A DNA stretch of 64,000 nt. Origin: Corynebacterium hindlerae. Its GTDB lineage: Bacteria > Actinomycetota > Actinomycetes > Mycobacteriales > Mycobacteriaceae. Within the stretch, counting starts at the first letter, position 1; the number at the start of each line of letters is the position of its first letter. Below are positions 967-11,121 of this stretch, piece after piece. The notes beneath the pieces were generated by a model, which made no database searches, was not told the origin of the DNA, and saw nothing but the letters and a program-made list of their open reading frames with translations. The stretch is taken from the NCBI RefSeq assembly GCF_014117265.1, contig NZ_CP059833.1, positions 1,457,069 through 1,521,068 on the forward strand. The letters are read 5' to 3'. Position numbers and translations under genes: made by a program.

Positions 967-1989
967 TTAACCTTTCGTCTCTTCGAAATAGCTTCCCACT
1001 GCGGAACCCAATTCAGGGAGACCGCCTAGGGAAATGCGGTAAGAAATGTTGCTAATACGTTCATCGAAGTCTCCGCTGAGCCGCGGGAAATTCGTGTCAA
1101 CGTTGTAAAAGGCAATAGGTGTACGCAGCAACCAACGAGTTGTGTAAAGGTGTTGATTTTCAGCGATGATGCCAACCCGAGCGAGCTTGGTCTCCAGTAA
1201 TTCCGCCGCATGGGCGTCGTGAAGCTGCGAGCGGAGCCCGTCAATTGCCTCCATGAGGGTCTCGCCCCCTTCGGCGGTTTTTGTTACCTGGAGGGACGCG
1301 AAGAGTAAGTTTTTGCCCAGAGTTGCTTGCAGTTGTGATAACGAGGAGATTATGTGAGATCGTTCTTCACTAGAAGTTGTTTTCACTTCAATATCGCAGG
1401 TAGCGAAGGTAAAGTCGTGTTCTTCTGCGAGTGGCCCCAGCCATGCAGCGACGGCTTCGTCGACGGTTTTGAGCCCACTGCGGACAAGGTGACGGAGAAC
1501 CATAACCTCACCTAGCAGGCCAATTTCAGTTGCCTGGGAAACCATTTTGAAGCCTTGCAGCAATTCACGAAAGCCTGAGACGGAGTCTCGAATTGCGACC
1601 ACAGGGGAGACTCCGTATTGCTGGATCAGCGTGGCGATGTTGCGGAGGAAGTAATAAGGCGCGGTGAGATTGGATCCGTCAACGAGAACTTCGACGATCG
1701 CTTTCTCGGCGTCATCGAAGCGCTCTTCCTTGCGCAATCGGAGATTCCTCAGATCGCCGATGCCGGTCTGGTCTTTTTCAAAGTCGAAGCCGCTAGCTTC
1801 GACGCGTAAACCAAGGTAACGCTCACGAGGATTGATAATGAGACTGACGTCAGTTCCCTGTTGCAAGGAGATATCGGTCAATTCGCCGGTTGCCCAGCGG
1901 TTCTCAATCCAGGAAATCGGCAAATATTTCTGCCCAAGACCGGCTGTCATCGGTCCGGTAACGGCGCCTTCGCGGTGTTCCAGGCTCAT
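967..1989 (-). CDS. PD-(D/E)XK motif protein (DUF4420 type)
   Basis: This 340-residue protein carries a conserved GLLGE (E161) followed by D192 and by DIEVKT (E201, K203), the pattern of a PD-(D/E)XK nuclease core as in the DUF4420 family. It is probably the DNA-cutting subunit of the GHKL/Z1 conflict system. The ATG at 1989 lies 86 bases inside the end of the upstream GHKL gene. The start is nevertheless supported by a GGAGAG ribosome site 7 bases before it, so the long overlap appears real and suggests translational coupling. An internal ATG at 1950 is the alternative. The Z1 gene begins 3 bases after its stop. Confidence 0.8.
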   Translation of the reverse strand: MSLEHREGAVTGPMTAGLGQKYLPISWIENRWATGELTDISLQQGTDVSLIINPRERYLGLRVEASGFDFEKDQTGIGDLRNLRLRKEERFDDAEKAIVEVLVDGSNLTAPYYFLRNIATLIQQYGVSPVVAIRDSVSGFRELLQGFKMVSQATEIGLLGEVMVLRHLVRSGLKTVDEAVAAWLGPLAEEHDFTFATCDIEVKTTSSEERSHIISSLSQLQATLGKNLLFASLQVTKTAEGGETLMEAIDGLRSQLHDAHAAELLETKLARVGIIAENQHLYTTRWLLRTPIAFYNVDTNFPRLSGDFDERISNISYRISLGGLPELGSAVGSYFEETKG

Positions 1990-3619
1990 CGACGCTCTCC
2001 ACTTCTAGTCGGTCCGCAGGTGCACTACTGCATTGCTCAGCCTTATTCTTACCCAACTTCCACTGCAGCTCCGGGTAAGCAGGTGATGTCGATTTCCGTT
2101 TGGGGGTGAGAAGGCGACGTTCGTGTGCTTCAATTTCTTCCGCAACGGCGGCATCCAAGGCAGCTTGGTAAAGCGCCAGTTTGTCCATGGCTCGCTGGGA
2201 TTTTCGCGCCATGTCAAAAAACTCGTTAAAAAGCAGGTACGCCAATGTTCGGAGCAAGGGCGCATCCTCCGCCTCGCTACCGGTTAGTCCCAGAGCTGGT
2301 CGCAGTGCCTCATTAAGTCGGATGGTGTTGGAACGAAAGTCAATGTTGGCGAAACCTTCATCGGAGATTCTGCTAGTCCACACCACGTTGATGGGATCAC
2401 GCGGCGCAAATGCGGCGGTTTCTTCAATGACCTCAACCACCGGTTCCGCCATGCCTTTCCCCGGTGGGACAATTGGCTTTAGCTTGGAATCACGCTTGTT
2501 ATTCTCTTGAGCTATTTCAACTGCATAATCAATAAATTCCTCGAAGCCAAAGGATCTGTTTGCAGGATCACGCAAGCTTTCTACGAACTCATGAAAACTA
2601 TTGCGTGTTCGCACCGCTCCTTTTTGTGGACTAATAGTGAAGTACTCATCGATCACTCTCGGGTCGTCGATTTCGACCCTGGCAAGTCGCAGATTGCGGG
2701 CGGGTTTGATCAAGTTAAGCCAGTCGCCTTCTGTGATCAGTCGACCGTTAAGGTACAGATAGAACCCCTGGTGAGAATAGTTCCCCGCGCGGTCCAGCAC
2801 GAAGTTCACCGATTTCGATTCTGGCCAAAGGTGCACGGTAATGCCCGGCGCATTTTCCTCCCCTCCAACGGTAAGCTTCTTCGGGTATCCCGGCGCGCCA
2901 GGACGGGGATAGCCAAACGGGTTGATGGGTTGGACGCGTCCGGTCTTGAATGGTGTCGCAGTGGGACCTTGTTGGACATACAGCGACACCAATTCTGGTT
3001 GGTCGGCGAGGAAACGATGGTAACGCAATCCAATATGCTGACTGATTTTCACCGTCAGCAGGGACAGGTACGCGCGCGCCTGATCGGGGTCGCTGCCCTG
3101 GTATGAGTCGATGAGGTTGTGCCAGATGACGGTGGTTCCTGACCCTCCGCCAATTGCTTTGCGACGCTCAGCCCAAAGCCTATCCACCTGGGGCGCAGAG
3201 AGCACTCCGACTTGGAAGCTTCCCGAGAACATTGTGCGCCCTACTGGTTGGGCGTGCTCTTCAGCAGAAATGACAGAGGTTTGGGTCGAGTTAGAAAGGG
3301 AGGCTTCTTTCAGTCCTACTCCGTAACGCCCGATACCGTTCGATTTTTGGGGATTGTGTGCGCCGAGCCGGAGGATGTTTTCCAAGGTCTCTTGGCTCAT
3401 TCCATGTCCATCATCATGGATGTGAACCTCATCAACCAAACCTTCTACCAGGTGGAATACGATGGCAATTTTCGACGCTCCGGCGTCGATACTGTTGTCG
3501 ATAAGCTCGTCTAATCCAGAGTAAACGTCATGGTTACTTCCCAGTGCATGCTGGATGCTGGGCAGTGGAGCAGCTTCGATAAAAAGATCGAAGTCTTGCC
3601 TGGCGGAAAGCTCACTCAC
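1904..3619 (-). CDS. GHKL ATPase, MutL/MORC-like, of a Z1-type restriction/conflict system
   Basis: The N-terminus has all three GHKL nucleotide-binding boxes: ELIDNSIDA (39-47), DDGHGM (69-74) and GIGRYGVGLK (95-104). Such ATPases act as nucleotide-driven DNA clamps. The remaining residues to 571 have no motif I can name; the C-terminus is basic and Arg-rich. The start is a GTG at 3619. The gene is the first of three tightly packed leftward genes (GHKL, PD-(D/E)XK, Z1), the arrangement known for MutL-homologue restriction systems related to eukaryotic MORC proteins. Its role as the switch ATPase of that system is inferred from this context. Confidence 0.85.
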   Translation of the reverse strand: MSELSARQDFDLFIEAAPLPSIQHALGSNHDVYSGLDELIDNSIDAGASKIAIVFHLVEGLVDEVHIHDDGHGMSQETLENILRLGAHNPQKSNGIGRYGVGLKEASLSNSTQTSVISAEEHAQPVGRTMFSGSFQVGVLSAPQVDRLWAERRKAIGGGSGTTVIWHNLIDSYQGSDPDQARAYLSLLTVKISQHIGLRYHRFLADQPELVSLYVQQGPTATPFKTGRVQPINPFGYPRPGAPGYPKKLTVGGEENAPGITVHLWPESKSVNFVLDRAGNYSHQGFYLYLNGRLITEGDWLNLIKPARNLRLARVEIDDPRVIDEYFTISPQKGAVRTRNSFHEFVESLRDPANRSFGFEEFIDYAVEIAQENNKRDSKLKPIVPPGKGMAEPVVEVIEETAAFAPRDPINVVWTSRISDEGFANIDFRSNTIRLNEALRPALGLTGSEAEDAPLLRTLAYLLFNEFFDMARKSQRAMDKLALYQAALDAAVAEEIEAHERRLLTPKRKSTSPAYPELQWKLGKNKAEQCSSAPADRLEVESVDEPGTPRRRRYRTDDSRSWAEIFADFLD

Positions 3620-4017: not shown

Positions 4018-4734
4018 TCACTTCAATTGACGCACGGTCATTATATTGACTTTTCCTTCCTGTACGTCCTCAAAACTGTCTAATTCCAGAGCTCGGCGTA
4101 GTCGCGATGCCACCCGAGCCTTGGGGGTTTGACGTTTCGCATTGTCCGGTTTCCGATCGCGACGCCGTTCATATGCAATAGAACTAGCAACAAGGTCGGC
4201 GAGTTGCACAAAGTCCATTACTTGCGAATCAACATCGTATGCTTCAACAATGCAGCGGCTTCCCAGTTTCCGGTTCACCTCGTGCTTCACCGTCTCCGCA
4301 ACGGTGAATCCCTGCGGGGTTTGCACCAGATCCATGAAAACATTAACCAATTCTCCCCGATTAATATTACCTTGGATCAAACGGGCGGCCATGAGCGCTT
4401 GCTGCTCCCAAGTTTCGCGGTCATCATCGAACAATGTCTTTGAGTCATATACTGACCCGCCAACCCTAACGTCGGCTGCTGCAAGCACTTCCACAACCTC
4501 GAAGTAGAAGGCCACTTTGTCCGCCTTAATGTCGGCAAAATGGATCTCTCTATAGAATCCATGCTTTTGTCTTAGGTGGCGGATTTCTCGCTCAAGACTA
4601 GGAGCATTTCGAACTTTTACGAATCCAACAACAAAGAATCCACCACTAGAGTTTCGAGCACCTGACTCGTCAAGGTAGATCGTAGAGACAGGTACTCGAT
4701 TTGGGAGCGAAAAATTTTTTGATTTAGCCACCAA
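4018..4734 (-). CDS. DUF3800 domain protein
   Basis: This 238-residue protein has the DUF3800 signature: an early IYLDESG (19-25) and a late FVQLADLVASS, which place acidic residues as in RNase H-like folds. The biochemical activity of the family is not settled, but members are common in defence islands and near mobile elements, and that is the setting here. The start is taken as TTG at 4734 because GAGG lies about 9 bases before it; a GTG one codon later is nearly as good. It stands alone, with about 400 bases to the next gene downstream and about 300 bases upstream. Confidence 0.75.
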   Translation of the reverse strand: MVAKSKNFSLPNRVPVSTIYLDESGARNSSGGFFVVGFVKVRNAPSLEREIRHLRQKHGFYREIHFADIKADKVAFYFEVVEVLAAADVRVGGSVYDSKTLFDDDRETWEQQALMAARLIQGNINRGELVNVFMDLVQTPQGFTVAETVKHEVNRKLGSRCIVEAYDVDSQVMDFVQLADLVASSIAYERRRDRKPDNAKRQTPKARVASRLRRALELDSFEDVQEGKVNIMTVRQLK

Positions 4735-5039: not shown

Positions 5040-8000
5040 CTACAACCCCTTCACAATGTCATTCGTCTCCACGGCCACGCGTGCAACTTTGGCAATGAGG
5101 TCCACGATGTACCGCGGATTACCCACTTCATCGGCCCAGTCGTTCGGGTCATTCACAATGCCCGAAGCCGTGTCCTTTTTGAGGTAATAGCGGTCAAAGA
5201 TCCATGCCAACGCCGATCGCGATCCCAACATGTATTCCTCGGCGTCCGCCGGGACGTTGGAGATGGTCACCACATTGTTGTACTTGATCCGCGTGAAGTC
5301 GCCCTTCTTCGCCCACTTCATTTTCTTCGCGCTAACGCGCCACGTCTCCCGGTCCTCCGGATCCGCGCCCGCCTTCAATTCGACCGTAACCGGGTACGGC
5401 TCCACATCCTCATACCCGACGTGCAGCGACATGAGCTTCTCGCCGGCCACGGCAAACTTGTCGAACTCATCCCGCGTCGGAGGCGTTTCAATATGCGGCA
5501 GCATCTTCTTCAAATCCGCCGCATATTTCTCCCGATACTCCGGATCGTGCAGCTTTCCGTACACAAAGTGGAAGATGTCATCGCCGGAAATATCCGTGCC
5601 CAGCTCATCCCGGTACAGCTTCTTGACCTCGTCGGTCACATTATCGACGCGCCGGTACCCCGCCACGACCTCACCGACCTCACCGTACTTGCTCGCCTCG
5701 CCAGGCTTATCGACGTCCACAGCCGCAAGATCCAATTCCCCTTCAGGAGCCTCAACCTTTTCCCACGTGAAACGGGGGAAGAACTGGCCTGTGAAGGTAA
5801 AAAACGAAAGGTCTGGAATCTGATCGACAGCTAGCACTGCAAACTGCGCTGCATCGCGTGGCGCCATTACTTCAAATCCAATATTTCGATGCTCCGGAGT
5901 CGGGAACATCGATGGGAGTTGGTACGTCATGTCGTTCAACGGAGGATCGAAAAGCCCCTGCAGCTTTGTGAATGGACGATACGCTGACGTGTAAGTCCGA
6001 TTCCCGTCCAATTCAATCTCTCGATTTCTCACTGCGTGGTTCTTGAGAGTGCGGTTCCACGAGATCTTTGTGGTATCCGCTAAAGCAGGAAAAGCGATGA
6101 GGAACTGGTTGAAATCAGCTTCTTTCGGGGAAACCAACCCTTCGGCCTCTGCCCACGCTCGGAACTGCAAACGAGCATCGTTATAAGCCGAAACCAATGT
6201 GCTCATATTCCCTTGCAGATTCATCTTGCCAAACGAATACGCCCAGGAATCGCGAGCAGTGGAAAGCCCTCGGGAAAATCGTTCAAAGAAATTATTCGTG
6301 TCAGTCTTCTTGTCCCCAATTACCGGCCACTTCTCAAAGTCAACAGACCGCTGGCTCAACCAATCGCCATATTCGTTTGGTTGAATCATTCGCCAGTCAA
6401 TTTCCGTGACAGTCGCTTGGGTGGCGTATTTTGTTTTCATTTCCGGCGTGGCGTAGTCAGGCGATTCGTAGTAGTGAATACTGCAGCCTTTCTTGCTACT
6501 GTCTTTGATTCCTACGGTGACTGCCACACCTACACGAATATTGAAGACGTTTCCGCCTTCTCGTTTCGCCAAATCGCCTGTTGTTCGGGAATTGCCGCGC
6601 AGATTGAAAATGTAAATGTCCGAGAAGTCCTCTGCCATTGAAAGGCGTACCCCCCCCCCCGGTATTTCCGTCAATCCAGCCGTTGTTGGTTACAAACGCG
6701 ACTACGCCCCGATCACCAATGCGGTCCGTCGCCCAGCGGAATGCGCGCAGGTAGGAGTCATAAAGCGAGTTCTTGTTCGTCGCGGTCGACTTAGCCGCGT
6801 AGGTCTCTTCAATTCGCTTATCCAAGGTCGGATACTTGAGATTCGCATTCAGATCGTTAGCACTGTTTTGACCTACCGAGTACGGTGGGTTGCTAACAAT
6901 CACGTTGATCGGTGCCTCAATCTGCCGGGTGATCGCGGCGTTGTTCTCTCGGAATACGTCAAGGTCAAGAACGTCGCCATCCTCATAAACCTGGAACGTA
7001 TCGGCAAGCGCGATGCCCTGGAACGGCTCGTATTCTGGAGCCTCGGTGCCGTCGCGAAGCGCAGCCTCTTCCCGTAGCGCGTTGTAGGTCATTTCGATGT
7101 TCGCGGTGGCCACGTAGTATGCGAGCAGCATGATTTCGGTGGCGTGCAGCTCGGAGGCATACTTGCGCGCTAGGTCTTCTGGTGTGATGTAACCGGACTG
7201 CAGGAGGCGCACCATGAAGGTACCGGTGCCGGTGAATGGGTCGAGGATGTGGACGCCTTCGTCGGTAAGCCCGCGGCCGAAGTGTTTGATAGACAGGTCG
7301 TTGGCGGCGCGGAGGATGAAGTCCACGATTTCGACCGGGGTGTAGACGATGCCGAGGGCTTCGGACTGCTTTTTGAAAGCCTTGCGGAAGAACTTCTCGT
7401 ACAGTTCCTTAATTACCTGCTGTTTGCCGGAGGCGCTGGTCAAGGCTTCGGCGCGCAGGCGCACGTCCGCGTAGAACTTTTCCAGTGGCTGGGTTTCGGT
7501 CTCCAGTTTCTTGTCATCAAGCGCGTCGACCATGCGTTGCATCACGCGGGCAACCGGGTTCATTTTCCCGAAGTTCTCCGAGTTAAACAGCGCGTTGAAC
7601 ACCGGCGCGGTGATCAGGTGCTGGGACAACATGCTGATCGCATCGTCTTCGGTAATCGAGTCGTTCAGGTTGCCCCGTAAGCCCTCGACGAAGATGTCGA
7701 ATTCTTTGCGGATTGTGGGGTCGGCGGCGTCGATAAGCGCCCTAATGCGCTCCATCTGTGCCTGCGCGATGCCCGCGACGTCCTCGGCCCAATCCTCCCA
7801 ATACGTGCGGGTGCCGACCTTGTCCACGATTTTGGTGTAGATCGCTTCCTGCCATTCCTCCAGCGAGAACAACACCAACTGGGTGACTTCGTCCTTGCCC
7901 GTGTCAAAGTTATCCGGCTTCTTGGTGTCGCCCACGTGGTCGTGCTCGACGGGGAGCTTTTCGTGATCGCCTTCGTTGAGATTGACGGAGCTGACTCGGG

Positions 8001-9957
8001 CATTGAACCGCTCATCGTGGGCACGGAGGGCGTTCAGCACCTGCCAGACAACCTTGAAGCGCTTGTTGTCATTCAGCACCTCAGCGGGGCTCTTACCTGG
8101 GGGGACAGCCACCGGAAGGATAATGTAGCCATACTCCTTGCCCTCCGACTTACGCATCACCCGGCCGACGGACTGCACTACGTCCACAATCGAATTGCGG
8201 GGGTTGAAGAACACCACCGAATCCAGCGCCGGCACATCCACGCCCTCAGAAAGGCAGCGGGCGTTGGTCAAGACACGAATTTCGTCCTGTTCTTTCGCGG
8301 CCTTGAGCCACGTCAACTTTTCTTTGCGAGTCAGTGCATTCATCCCTCCGTCCACATGATCGGCGGTCACTCGCAGGTCCACGTTGTGGAGGGAGACGTC
8401 GTTGAGCACGGCTTTCTCCCGAAGGAAATCGGTGTGGCTCGCAATGAGCTGCGGGAACGAAGCGGCGATATTCTTAGAGGTCTTGATGTCCTTGGCAAAC
8501 GCGACCGCGCGCTCCATTGGGAGTGCGCCCTCTTCAAAGCCACCTTTCTTGCCTTGTTCGGTTCCCGAGCGCTTGGCAAAGGCATTCCACGCGCCGATCA
8601 TTGCGGATGCCTGGGTGAGGGTCAGCTCCTCGGTAGGCGCCATACGCGCCATCGCGTCGGCTGCCACCGACTCGTCCACTGTCATGACCAGGACTTTGTA
8701 GTCCGTGAGCAGGTCCTTCGACACCGCCTCACCGAATCCGAGGCGGTGCATTTCAGGACCATAGACCGCCTCATCGTCCATGGAGAACAGCTCGGCGGAG
8801 TGCTCAACGGCCTTGCCTTTGACAGTGTCATCGAACAGGCGTGGTGTGGCCGTCATGTACAGGCGCTTTCCGGCTTTGATGTACTTCGCGTCGTGGACCC
8901 GGTTGAAGTTTGATGGGTCGTCGCCATGCAGCGTCGCGCCCGTGGTGCGGTGCGCTTCATCGCAAATGACCAAGTCGAATGGGTCAAGGCCCTTTTCTTG
9001 CGCGTCATGGATCGCAGGAATGGACTGGTAAGTGGAGAAAACAACTGTTAGCCCAGCTTTGCGTTTGCCCTTGCTCAGTTCCTCACTGATTTCCGCGCCA
9101 TTCGTACTGACGGGGATCTCCAGATCGTAACTGGCGATGTCCTCCGCTTCCTTGCCTACCTTGGTATCCGAGCACACCGCGTAGGTGCGCAGATCCAGCT
9201 GCGCCTGGGCCGACCACTCCTTCAAGCTCTGAGAAAGCAAGCTAATCGACGGCACTAGGAACAACACCCGGGCCTTAGGATTAGTCGGATTCAGCTCAGC
9301 TGCAAAACGTTCCGCCAACCGCAACGAAGTAAAAGTCTTGCCCGTACCGCAAGCCATGATGAGCTTGCCTCGATCATGCGTTTTGAAACCTTGCAGGACA
9401 TTCTTGATGGCTTCTTCCTGGTGTGGACGCGGTTCGAAGAACTCTTTTCTCGTCAGGTTGATCTGAATCTCCGAACCAGGGAACACAATGTCCCAGTTGA
9501 TCGGCGATTCCGCAATGTCGCTCACCCCGATGCGGTTGGTCTTAATGATCTGGTTTTCCAACGCGGATTCCGCATTACTCGACCAATTATCGGTGGTGGA
9601 AATAATGATGCGGTTGGCAAAAGTCTCGACGCCGTTCTCGGTCTGGAAACTACGTCCTGACGCCTCGAAGAACGAATCCAAGTGCCGCTTCTGCAGATAG
9701 GTCTGCGGCAGGTAGAACTTGCACTGGATTGCCGTCCAGCGTTGGTCATCACGTCGACGGGCGACCAAGTCGATTCCGGTATCCGCTTTGCCTCCGTTGT
9801 ACTTCCAATCGCCCCAACGATAGACCTCGTCATAGCGTTCCTTGAGCACCGGATCAGCCTTGAAGTAGTTCACCATGAGCTTTTCAAAGCTGAGTCCCTG
9901 CTCAGCAGCCGATGGGAGCGTACGGAGTTCAGCGATGGCATCACGGAAAGAAGACAT
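5040..9957 (-). pseudogene. Type ISP-like restriction-modification enzyme, frameshifted at a poly-G tract (phase OFF)
   Basis: One locus spans two reading frames that meet at the tract at 6650-6660. The first frame (9957 to 6496) encodes an Mrr-like nuclease (D63, then QCK at 78-80), a superfamily II helicase with Walker A CGTGKT (203-208) and DEAH (333-336), and the methylase motifs DPFTGTGTF (906-914) and NPPY (1023-1026). It reads GNT at about residue 1099 and then leaves frame for 54 unrelated residues. The continuation in the other frame (about 6660 to 5040) begins MAEDFSDIYIFNLRGN, the normal next part of Type ISP enzymes, and holds the rest of the methylase and the target-recognition region. 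The total of 4918 bases is one more than a 1638-codon gene. With 11 G the product lacks its specificity domain; 10 or 13 G would restore it. HipA ends 24 bases upstream. Confidence 0.88.
6650..6660 (-). repeat. Poly-G tract (11 G on the coding strand), putative phase-variation switch
   Basis: Eleven consecutive C on the + strand, read as G11 in the Type ISP gene. The codons before it are AAT ACC and those needed after it are GTA CGC CTT; these join in frame only with 10 G (or 7 or 13). Mononucleotide tracts of this length are well-known slipped-strand switches in restriction genes of other bacteria. A sequencing or assembly length error cannot be excluded from one sequence. Confidence 0.8.
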
Positions 9958-9981: not shown

Positions 9982-11121
9982 CTACCAATGCCGCCTGCGA
10001 CTCCGCAGAATCCTCACTAGATCCCTTTGGCGACGGGAATCCCAGGGACAGGCGTCGATAAGCGCCCGTGCGAGGTTGTCGGTGGCCTTTACTGCTTCGT
10101 CCGCGATGCTGTTCGCTTTCTTTTCGCTTAGGCCGTAGTCTTCGCAATACTTCAGGAATCTCTTGCGGCTAAGGCCATTTCTGTTGCCCGCAACGCTGAG
10201 TGCCATCGAGGTGTCACCATAGGGGGCGGTGCTGGGGATGTCGTAGACCGGGGAGAGCTCGAACCCCTGTCCTTTATTAATGACGGAAACATTCTTGGCG
10301 TGGAGGTCTCCATTACCGCTTAGCCAAGAGAATGCAAGCTGGGTAGCGAGTCCTTGAGCTGCGAGTATGGGCGAGCTGACTACACCGAGCACCGCTTCGG
10401 TTACCTCTTCGAAACTGACGTTGTATTTGTCTGCCGGATAGATATTCAGGAGCTGGCCGGCGTCTTCGACAGCATGTTTGTGGGGGAATTGGCCATCGAA
10501 TCTCTTAATGACCAGTCCAGATCGACCATGCTGGTCACGGATTACCTTGGCGTCAACAATCTTGTTCTTCTGCCCCTTCATACCCCGGAACGCCTGTATG
10601 CAGGCGTATTCGTTTTCGACAAGCCAGGGATGCTCTGGCGGCGAGATCTTTACGATCGCCTCCTCCCCCATAGGAAAGGCAATGGTCCGCGCCGAGGCCT
10701 TCTCCTGCACCCCAGCAATCGCATTGGGATCGGGCACGCCTGCGTCTGCCAGTACGTTTTCGAAGTCGAGGTCAGGCGCGTCCAAATCGATGCTCGCTTC
10801 GGGCTTTTTCGGGCGCTCCCCCTCAGGCAGCACCACCACTCGGCCAACAGTGTTCCCACCCACGGCGAGCAACAGCCCGAGATCGTCATCGGCTGAGGTC
10901 TTGACAGAGCGCTTCAACGCAGAAAGGCGTCGACCTTCGGGAAGCAATCCGGCGAAGAATGGTGGGAGAGCGCCGGGTTGGGTCCGCACTGGGCTTTGCT
11001 TCATCGGCAGGGTGGTTGCAACCGGGATGGTTGTCTCAGGAAGGTAGCGAAATTCTACGTATTCTCGCGTCCGCTCCAACTCGGCAACCTGCTGCTCTCC
11101 GATCCACACCCCGGCGATCAT
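9982..11121 (-). CDS. hipA: HipA-family serine/threonine kinase toxin
   Basis: This 379-residue protein has the HipA kinase fold: the N-terminal HipA_N-like region with LPEGRR (60-65), a catalytic loop GDLHAKN (271-277; D272 and N277), and the metal-binding D294 in PVYDIPS. HipA kinases phosphorylate aminoacyl-tRNA synthetases, which stops translation and promotes persistence. The start ATG at 11121 overlaps the hipB stop by 4 bases (ATGA), so the two are translated together. The Type ISP gene begins 24 bases after the hipA stop on the same strand and may share its transcript. Confidence 0.9.
   Translation of the reverse strand: MIAGVWIGEQQVAELERTREYVEFRYLPETTIPVATTLPMKQSPVRTQPGALPPFFAGLLPEGRRLSALKRSVKTSADDDLGLLLAVGGNTVGRVVVLPEGERPKKPEASIDLDAPDLDFENVLADAGVPDPNAIAGVQEKASARTIAFPMGEEAIVKISPPEHPWLVENEYACIQAFRGMKGQKNKIVDAKVIRDQHGRSGLVIKRFDGQFPHKHAVEDAGQLLNIYPADKYNVSFEEVTEAVLGVVSSPILAAQGLATQLAFSWLSGNGDLHAKNVSVINKGQGFELSPVYDIPSTAPYGDTSMALSVAGNRNGLSRKRFLKYCEDYGLSEKKANSIADEAVKATDNLARALIDACPWDSRRQRDLVRILRSRRRHW

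Follow-up and report, generated by a model that had tools for sequence, protein, structure and literature searches.

In a 64,000-nt stretch of the Corynebacterium hindlerae genome (the window, whose numbering is used for all coordinates), a gene for a Type ISP restriction-modification enzyme was found to be split at a tract of 11 guanines (G11), and we consider it very probable that this gene is a contingency locus switched by slippage of the tract. The first open reading frame (ORF) of the gene reaches the tract at codon 1100 and meets a stop 54 codons on, at 6496-6498, and the second half is open in another frame for 535 codons past the tract, to a stop at 5040 (Table 1). The gene in this way displays a hallmark of contingency genes, a long mononucleotide run in the coding region that joins frames. 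The original prediction, made from the DNA letters alone, had described the 4918-base span as a whole number of codons plus one base and had placed the tract between the methylase motif NPPY and the specificity region; the coordinates bear out both points. They also agree with its description of the present allele as being in the OFF state, with nuclease and motor kept and the methylase end and specificity domain lost, the specificity half being encoded in the other frame. Runs of this kind are rare in the host: its 2.68-Mb genome contains three of at least 9 nt in all, counting the G11 of the Type ISP gene, a G13 at the 5′ end of a gene for a surface protein, and a G9 between genes.

The assignment to the Type ISP family, also part of the original prediction, was upheld by domain order and by structural relatives. 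The Mrr nuclease, superfamily 2 (SF2) motor, coupler, N6-adenine methylase, and specificity domain were found in the order typical of the family, and the full length of LlaBIII/LlaGI (PDB 4xqk and 5ffj) was covered by the two consecutive pieces of the gene, with the first piece matching 14-1093 of the LlaBIII structure 4xqk and the second piece matching from 1097. Likewise, residues 1-1102 aligned with positions 2-1111 of the PADLOC model PDLC03597 (1646 positions), and the C-terminal piece aligned with positions 1111-1634. Judged from its sequence, the gene is a member of the Type ISP family, intact relatives of which exist in other genomes; the present allele, its chain split at the tract, does not encode the single whole polypeptide that characterizes Type ISP enzymes. 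The label that PADLOC attaches to PDLC03597, Type IIG, was considered too loose and was rejected, as the ResIII/Helicase_C motor and the ISP coupler are present. Type IIG enzymes are defined as single-chain proteins with a nuclease and a methylase and without a helicase motor.

Table 1. Features of the split Type ISP gene in the C. hindlerae window
Feature	Coordinates	Strand	Remark
Type ISP restriction-modification gene, split	5040-9957	minus	
First ORF, 1153 codons, starting at 9957	6496-9957	minus	final 54 codons in or after the tract, out of frame relative to the family
Second open frame, methylase end and specificity half	5040-6674	minus	
Mrr_cat_2 nuclease domain (PF13156)	9469-9861	minus	domain match
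ResIII helicase-like motor, first RecA part (PF04851)	8839-9438	minus	domain match
Helicase_C motor part (PF00271)	8149-8373	minus	domain match
Type ISP coupler domain (PF22240)	7429-7803	minus	domain match
N6-adenine methylase, first part (PF02384)	6835-7419	minus	contains NPPY
Methylase motif NPPY	6880-6891	minus	residue 1023
G11 tract (C11 on the plus strand), proposed slippage switch	6650-6660	minus	codon 1100
Type ISP C-terminal specificity domain (PF18135)	5097-6290	minus	domain match

Relatives of the first ORF were examined by protein search (best 120 of 7998 scored) to compare the same site among close kin. The protein P0001 shares 97.6% identity with residues 1-1099; three glycines into the tract site it continues to its end in the third frame, and so represents a different frame class at the codon-1100 tract, likewise out of frame. 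A C-terminal half that is 73% identical to that of the window (P0122) lies on a contig equal in length to that of P0001 and is probably the remainder of the same gene. The frame was therefore found to differ among close relatives, as in contingency genes, both at this site (P0001) and at another site where all three frames occur (a Corynebacterium riegelii-like cluster described below). Comparison of tract length among relatives had been proposed as a check on the prediction, and a single fixed in-frame length was not seen among the relatives found. Two further relatives were closely similar upstream: (i) P0002, which is full-length and has no glycine run at the tract site, is 94.5% identical in its first half and 60% in its C-terminal half, suggesting that specificity regions may be exchanged between alleles; and (ii) P0003, known from the protein only, is 98.8% identical over 974 residues and ends at residue 980 shortly past Ala-Pro-Pro, near the place of a C-tract in other species. 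In many other relatives the tract column is occupied by Asp or Ala (by a motif comparison to which some relatives gave no match), and the codon-1100 run thus looks local. Searches of plasmids returned matches in other genera at about 71-76% DNA identity and about 60% protein identity.

A search with a full-length relative as query identified the C. riegelii-like cluster, in which frame classes were read from the proteins and tract lengths were inferred from amino acids. The cluster comprised ten proteins that are 97.4-100% identical over their first 940 residues, with P0244 and P0245 bearing the name C. riegelii. At the methylase C-tract three of the ten were full-length and one ended in the tract; the other six were out of frame and fell into two classes, such that all three frames were represented. 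The out-of-frame P0246 and the full-length P0252 are indistinguishable for 980 residues up to the tract. When the downstream halves of six C-tract loci were compared (four out of frame and two in frame), the pairwise ratios of nonsynonymous to synonymous substitution rates (dN/dS) were 0.09-0.16, including 0.09 for the out-of-frame pair L042/L043. Constraint on the halves downstream of the break was thus observed in one tract-bearing clade. Upstream dN/dS values involving L114 were not used because an in-frame stop makes them invalid.

We also investigated Type ISP genes across the genus. Of 242 Corynebacterium genomes searched, 152 had a match at an E-value of at most 0.001, many of them weak, and 109 loci were analysed (30 from the genus search and 79 fetched, with L039 set aside), which comprise most of the strong listed places, with several small fragments left out. 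Replacement of four short versions by longer ones gave 105 loci, including 83 that were near-complete on one contig (some without the last residues, at the locus end) and 22 others, either truncated, in fragments, or matched in part, which do not enter the near-complete counts. A G/C run of at least 8 nt was detected in 16 of the 83 near-complete genes. Numbered by the codons of the window protein, the runs lie at about 223 (G8, G9, and G10), 320 (G10), 555 (G8), 675-690 (C11 and C11), 975-983 (seven genes, C9 to C14), and 1100 (the G11 of the window), with one more in the specificity half (G11), for about seven sites by an estimate made without a tree. A frame change was found in 15 of the 83 genes; 11 of these 15 have a run of at least 8, and the break lies at the run in all 11 (Fisher P = 3e-7 for the association of break and run among near-complete genes). 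The reading frame is maintained across the run in 5 of the 16 run-bearing genes, close to the third expected if lengths drift freely, and four of these five genes (L040, L078, L082, and L113) are open throughout. Switching by homopolymer, as originally proposed, is supported by these run-borne breaks at several positions in the genus together with the other frame classes in close relatives. Furthermore, it seems likely that Type ISP genes form a genus-wide convergent contingency locus, in which switches have repeatedly arisen at about seven codon positions (in motor, linker, methylase, and specificity regions) and would yield clones of mixed defended and DNA-permissive cells, probably with two methylomes, under a mismatch repair that is blind to slippage.

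The possibility that any G/C-rich gene carries such runs was rejected on the basis of three controls: genome density, synonymous shuffles, and loci of other genera. There were 12 runs of at least 10 in 459 kb of Type ISP gene stretches (two of the 12 in L046). Against a background of 664 ten-G/C matches in 90 of these genomes, each taken as 2.6 Mb, 23 such matches were seen in Type ISP genes vs 1.3 predicted (0.66 without four outlier genomes), a density about 18-35 times that of the host genomes. Synonymous-codon shuffles of 67 in-frame genes (200 shuffles) gave a mean of 0.025 runs of at least 10 compared with 4 seen, and a mean of 1.1 runs of at least 8 compared with 5 seen. In other genera of the family, represented by 40 loci with a GC content of 0.59-0.65 from listed places in 62 matched genomes, 1 of 36 near-complete genes (counted by eye) had a run of at least 8 (Fisher P = 0.02 vs Corynebacterium). 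This run, a G13 in L144, is at a break in the same methylase place; one break without a run was also detected outside the genus (L146).

Based on these findings, polymerase slippage on the G tract would change its length, with one frame class of lengths giving a whole chain of nuclease, motor, coupler, methylase, and specificity domain, and other lengths, such as the present G11, giving a truncated chain that would lack the methylase end and specificity domain. A published account of Type ISP enzymes (PMC4872093) describes a target-recognition domain that reads the site and a methylase that marks it, with cutting dependent on two sites and on communication driven by ATP. A chain that cannot recognize its target would be expected neither to methylate sites nor to initiate the translocation on which cutting depends; because the present chain is without its target-recognition domain, we infer that both activities are off, and restriction and modification would be lost at the same time. 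In the host genome, profile searches gave a match to NucS_C and none to MutS_V (MutL was not searched for); among 14 control genomes the NucS_C model matched 7 and the MutS_V model 11. NucS does not correct insertions or deletions (PMC8228993), and with no MutS match, slipped copies would probably escape repair in this host. Tracts appear to have been gained repeatedly at different codons of Corynebacterium Type ISP genes, which suggests selection for switchability. The presumed benefit is that a single clone would include protected cells alongside others that admit foreign DNA.

Several observations weigh against the switching interpretation and were considered together with other explanations. 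The codon-1100 tract is known from the window and P0001 only, both out of frame, and an in-frame allele with this tract was not found among the relatives. The C-tract genes are partly related, and the 16 run-bearing genes are not 16 independent events. In the C. riegelii-like cluster, the inferred tract lengths derive largely from third-party assemblies. Among the near-complete genes of the genus, L114 is in frame across its run yet has a stop at codon 48, and the break of L046 coincides with a gap in the assembly. Ordinary decay, by which an indel (insertion or deletion) in a weak spot inactivated a gene whose loss was favoured, with no switching involved, would account for (i) the four broken near-complete genes without a run of at least 8, namely L105 (G7), L086 (C6), and L053 and L102 (none); (ii) six of the left-out fragments (L093, L110, L111, L115, L116, and L117), which have frame changes with no G/C run of at least 6 at the break; and (iii) the 4 of 68 near-complete single-frame genes with an internal stop. 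These run-less breaks and internal stops show that decay also occurs in Type ISP genes, and the inactivation of a 1541-residue restriction gene of P. acnes five times independently (PMC4746626) warns that selection can favour the loss of such genes. However, decay alone is a very improbable account of the window gene: runs also occur in the fully open genes, many times more often than synonymous shuffles predict; full-length and out-of-frame alleles are found side by side among proteins with as much as 100% upstream identity; and downstream halves are constrained, also between two out-of-frame alleles.

The length of the tract at 6650-6660 rests on one assembly and could be an assembly error, as base callers and assemblers fail at long G runs; the gene of the strain would then be intact. 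We regard such an error as more improbable than decay, since a wrong length would leave the run, the slippage-prone feature itself, unexplained, an independent assembly (P0001) has another out-of-frame class, and the frame is lost in 11 of the 16 genes with runs, which come from unrelated genomes (errors could contribute there too). Transcriptional or ribosomal slippage may instead provide some full-length enzyme at any tract length, in which case the gene would be tuned down and not switched. Mononucleotide runs can cause transcriptional slippage (PMC1088944, on runs of A and T); however, the DNA tracts themselves differ in frame between close relatives, and we consider this explanation the least probable of all. 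Some leakiness on top of DNA-level switching may occur.

Among known systems, the Type IIG enzyme Cj0031 of Campylobacter jejuni is not known to have an SF2 motor or an ISP coupler, and is of a different family and phylum. It resembles the window gene in combining nuclease and methylase in one gene, and its phase variation alters methylation and phage restriction (PMC4889913). LlaBIII/LlaGI are alike in domain order and match the gene over the whole length in two pieces; unlike the window gene, no homopolymer switch is described for them in the available text of PMC4872093. The Helicobacter pylori genes HP0667-HP0669 and JHP0612-JHP0613 are also frameshifted Type ISP genes, but the frameshifts of HP0667-HP0669 are stated not to be due to sequence repeats (PMC3936762). 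In another actinobacterium, Bifidobacterium breve, replication slippage at an intragenic G tract acts as an ON/OFF switch for sortase-dependent pili (PMC9187656), although the target is a surface structure and not a restriction enzyme. No report of repeat-driven phase variation was found for a Type ISP enzyme, nor for a Corynebacterium restriction system, among the papers listed in searches of the open-licence literature. The doubt voiced in the original prediction as to precedent thus stands for Type ISP enzymes but was too cautious for single-chain enzymes in general, as those of Type IIG do phase-vary (PMC4889913).

If the contingency reading is true, Type ISP enzymes join the phase-variable restriction systems and Corynebacterium joins the genera that use them, and switch states may be hidden among genes now annotated as partial or frameshifted. 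The gene would be suited to asking how a single-chain enzyme is switched on again when the chromosome is unmethylated. It also bears on (i) why near-identical corynebacteria may vary in DNA uptake and in their sensitivity to phages; and (ii) whether actinobacteria with NucS and without MutS use homopolymers more freely.

Other G/C runs were noted in the host and the genus. The G13, the longest G run of the host (run 1501-1513 of L004, G000:C1:1661983-1664991), lies 41 bases ahead of the first start listed for a long ORF that encodes a surface protein with Big_8 and DUF5979, apparently in its leader region, and this gene is thus likely, from its sequence context, to be a second switchable gene in the host. 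G/C runs of at least 10 were present in 184 of the 242 Corynebacterium genomes, which makes other switchable genes in the genus likely; two genomes (G008 and G020) had hundreds of ten-G matches, perhaps partly assembly artefacts.

Possible mobile and defence elements were also noted in or near Type ISP genes. At L108/L109, among the 22 left-out loci, the run holds an insertion element. The ends of one apparent insertion element abut the G/C runs of both L044/L045 (G086, codon ~976) and L108/L109 (G074, codon ~555), as if it targets G/C runs, and the start of P0123 looks like a possible third case. In three genomes the N- and C-terminal Type ISP parts lie apart on the same strand, by about 51 kb (L048/L049, G142), 27 kb (L051/L052, G033), and 54 kb (L093/L115, G014), and may have been separated by insertions, for example of prophages. 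In the window, the neighbours at 967-3619, 4018-4734, and 9982-11121 (minus strand) look like a defence island, with genes that resemble MzaB and MzaD (at scores well under the NCBIfam cut-offs), one for a DUF3800 protein, and one, HipA-like, whose end is 24 bases upstream of the start of the Type ISP gene.
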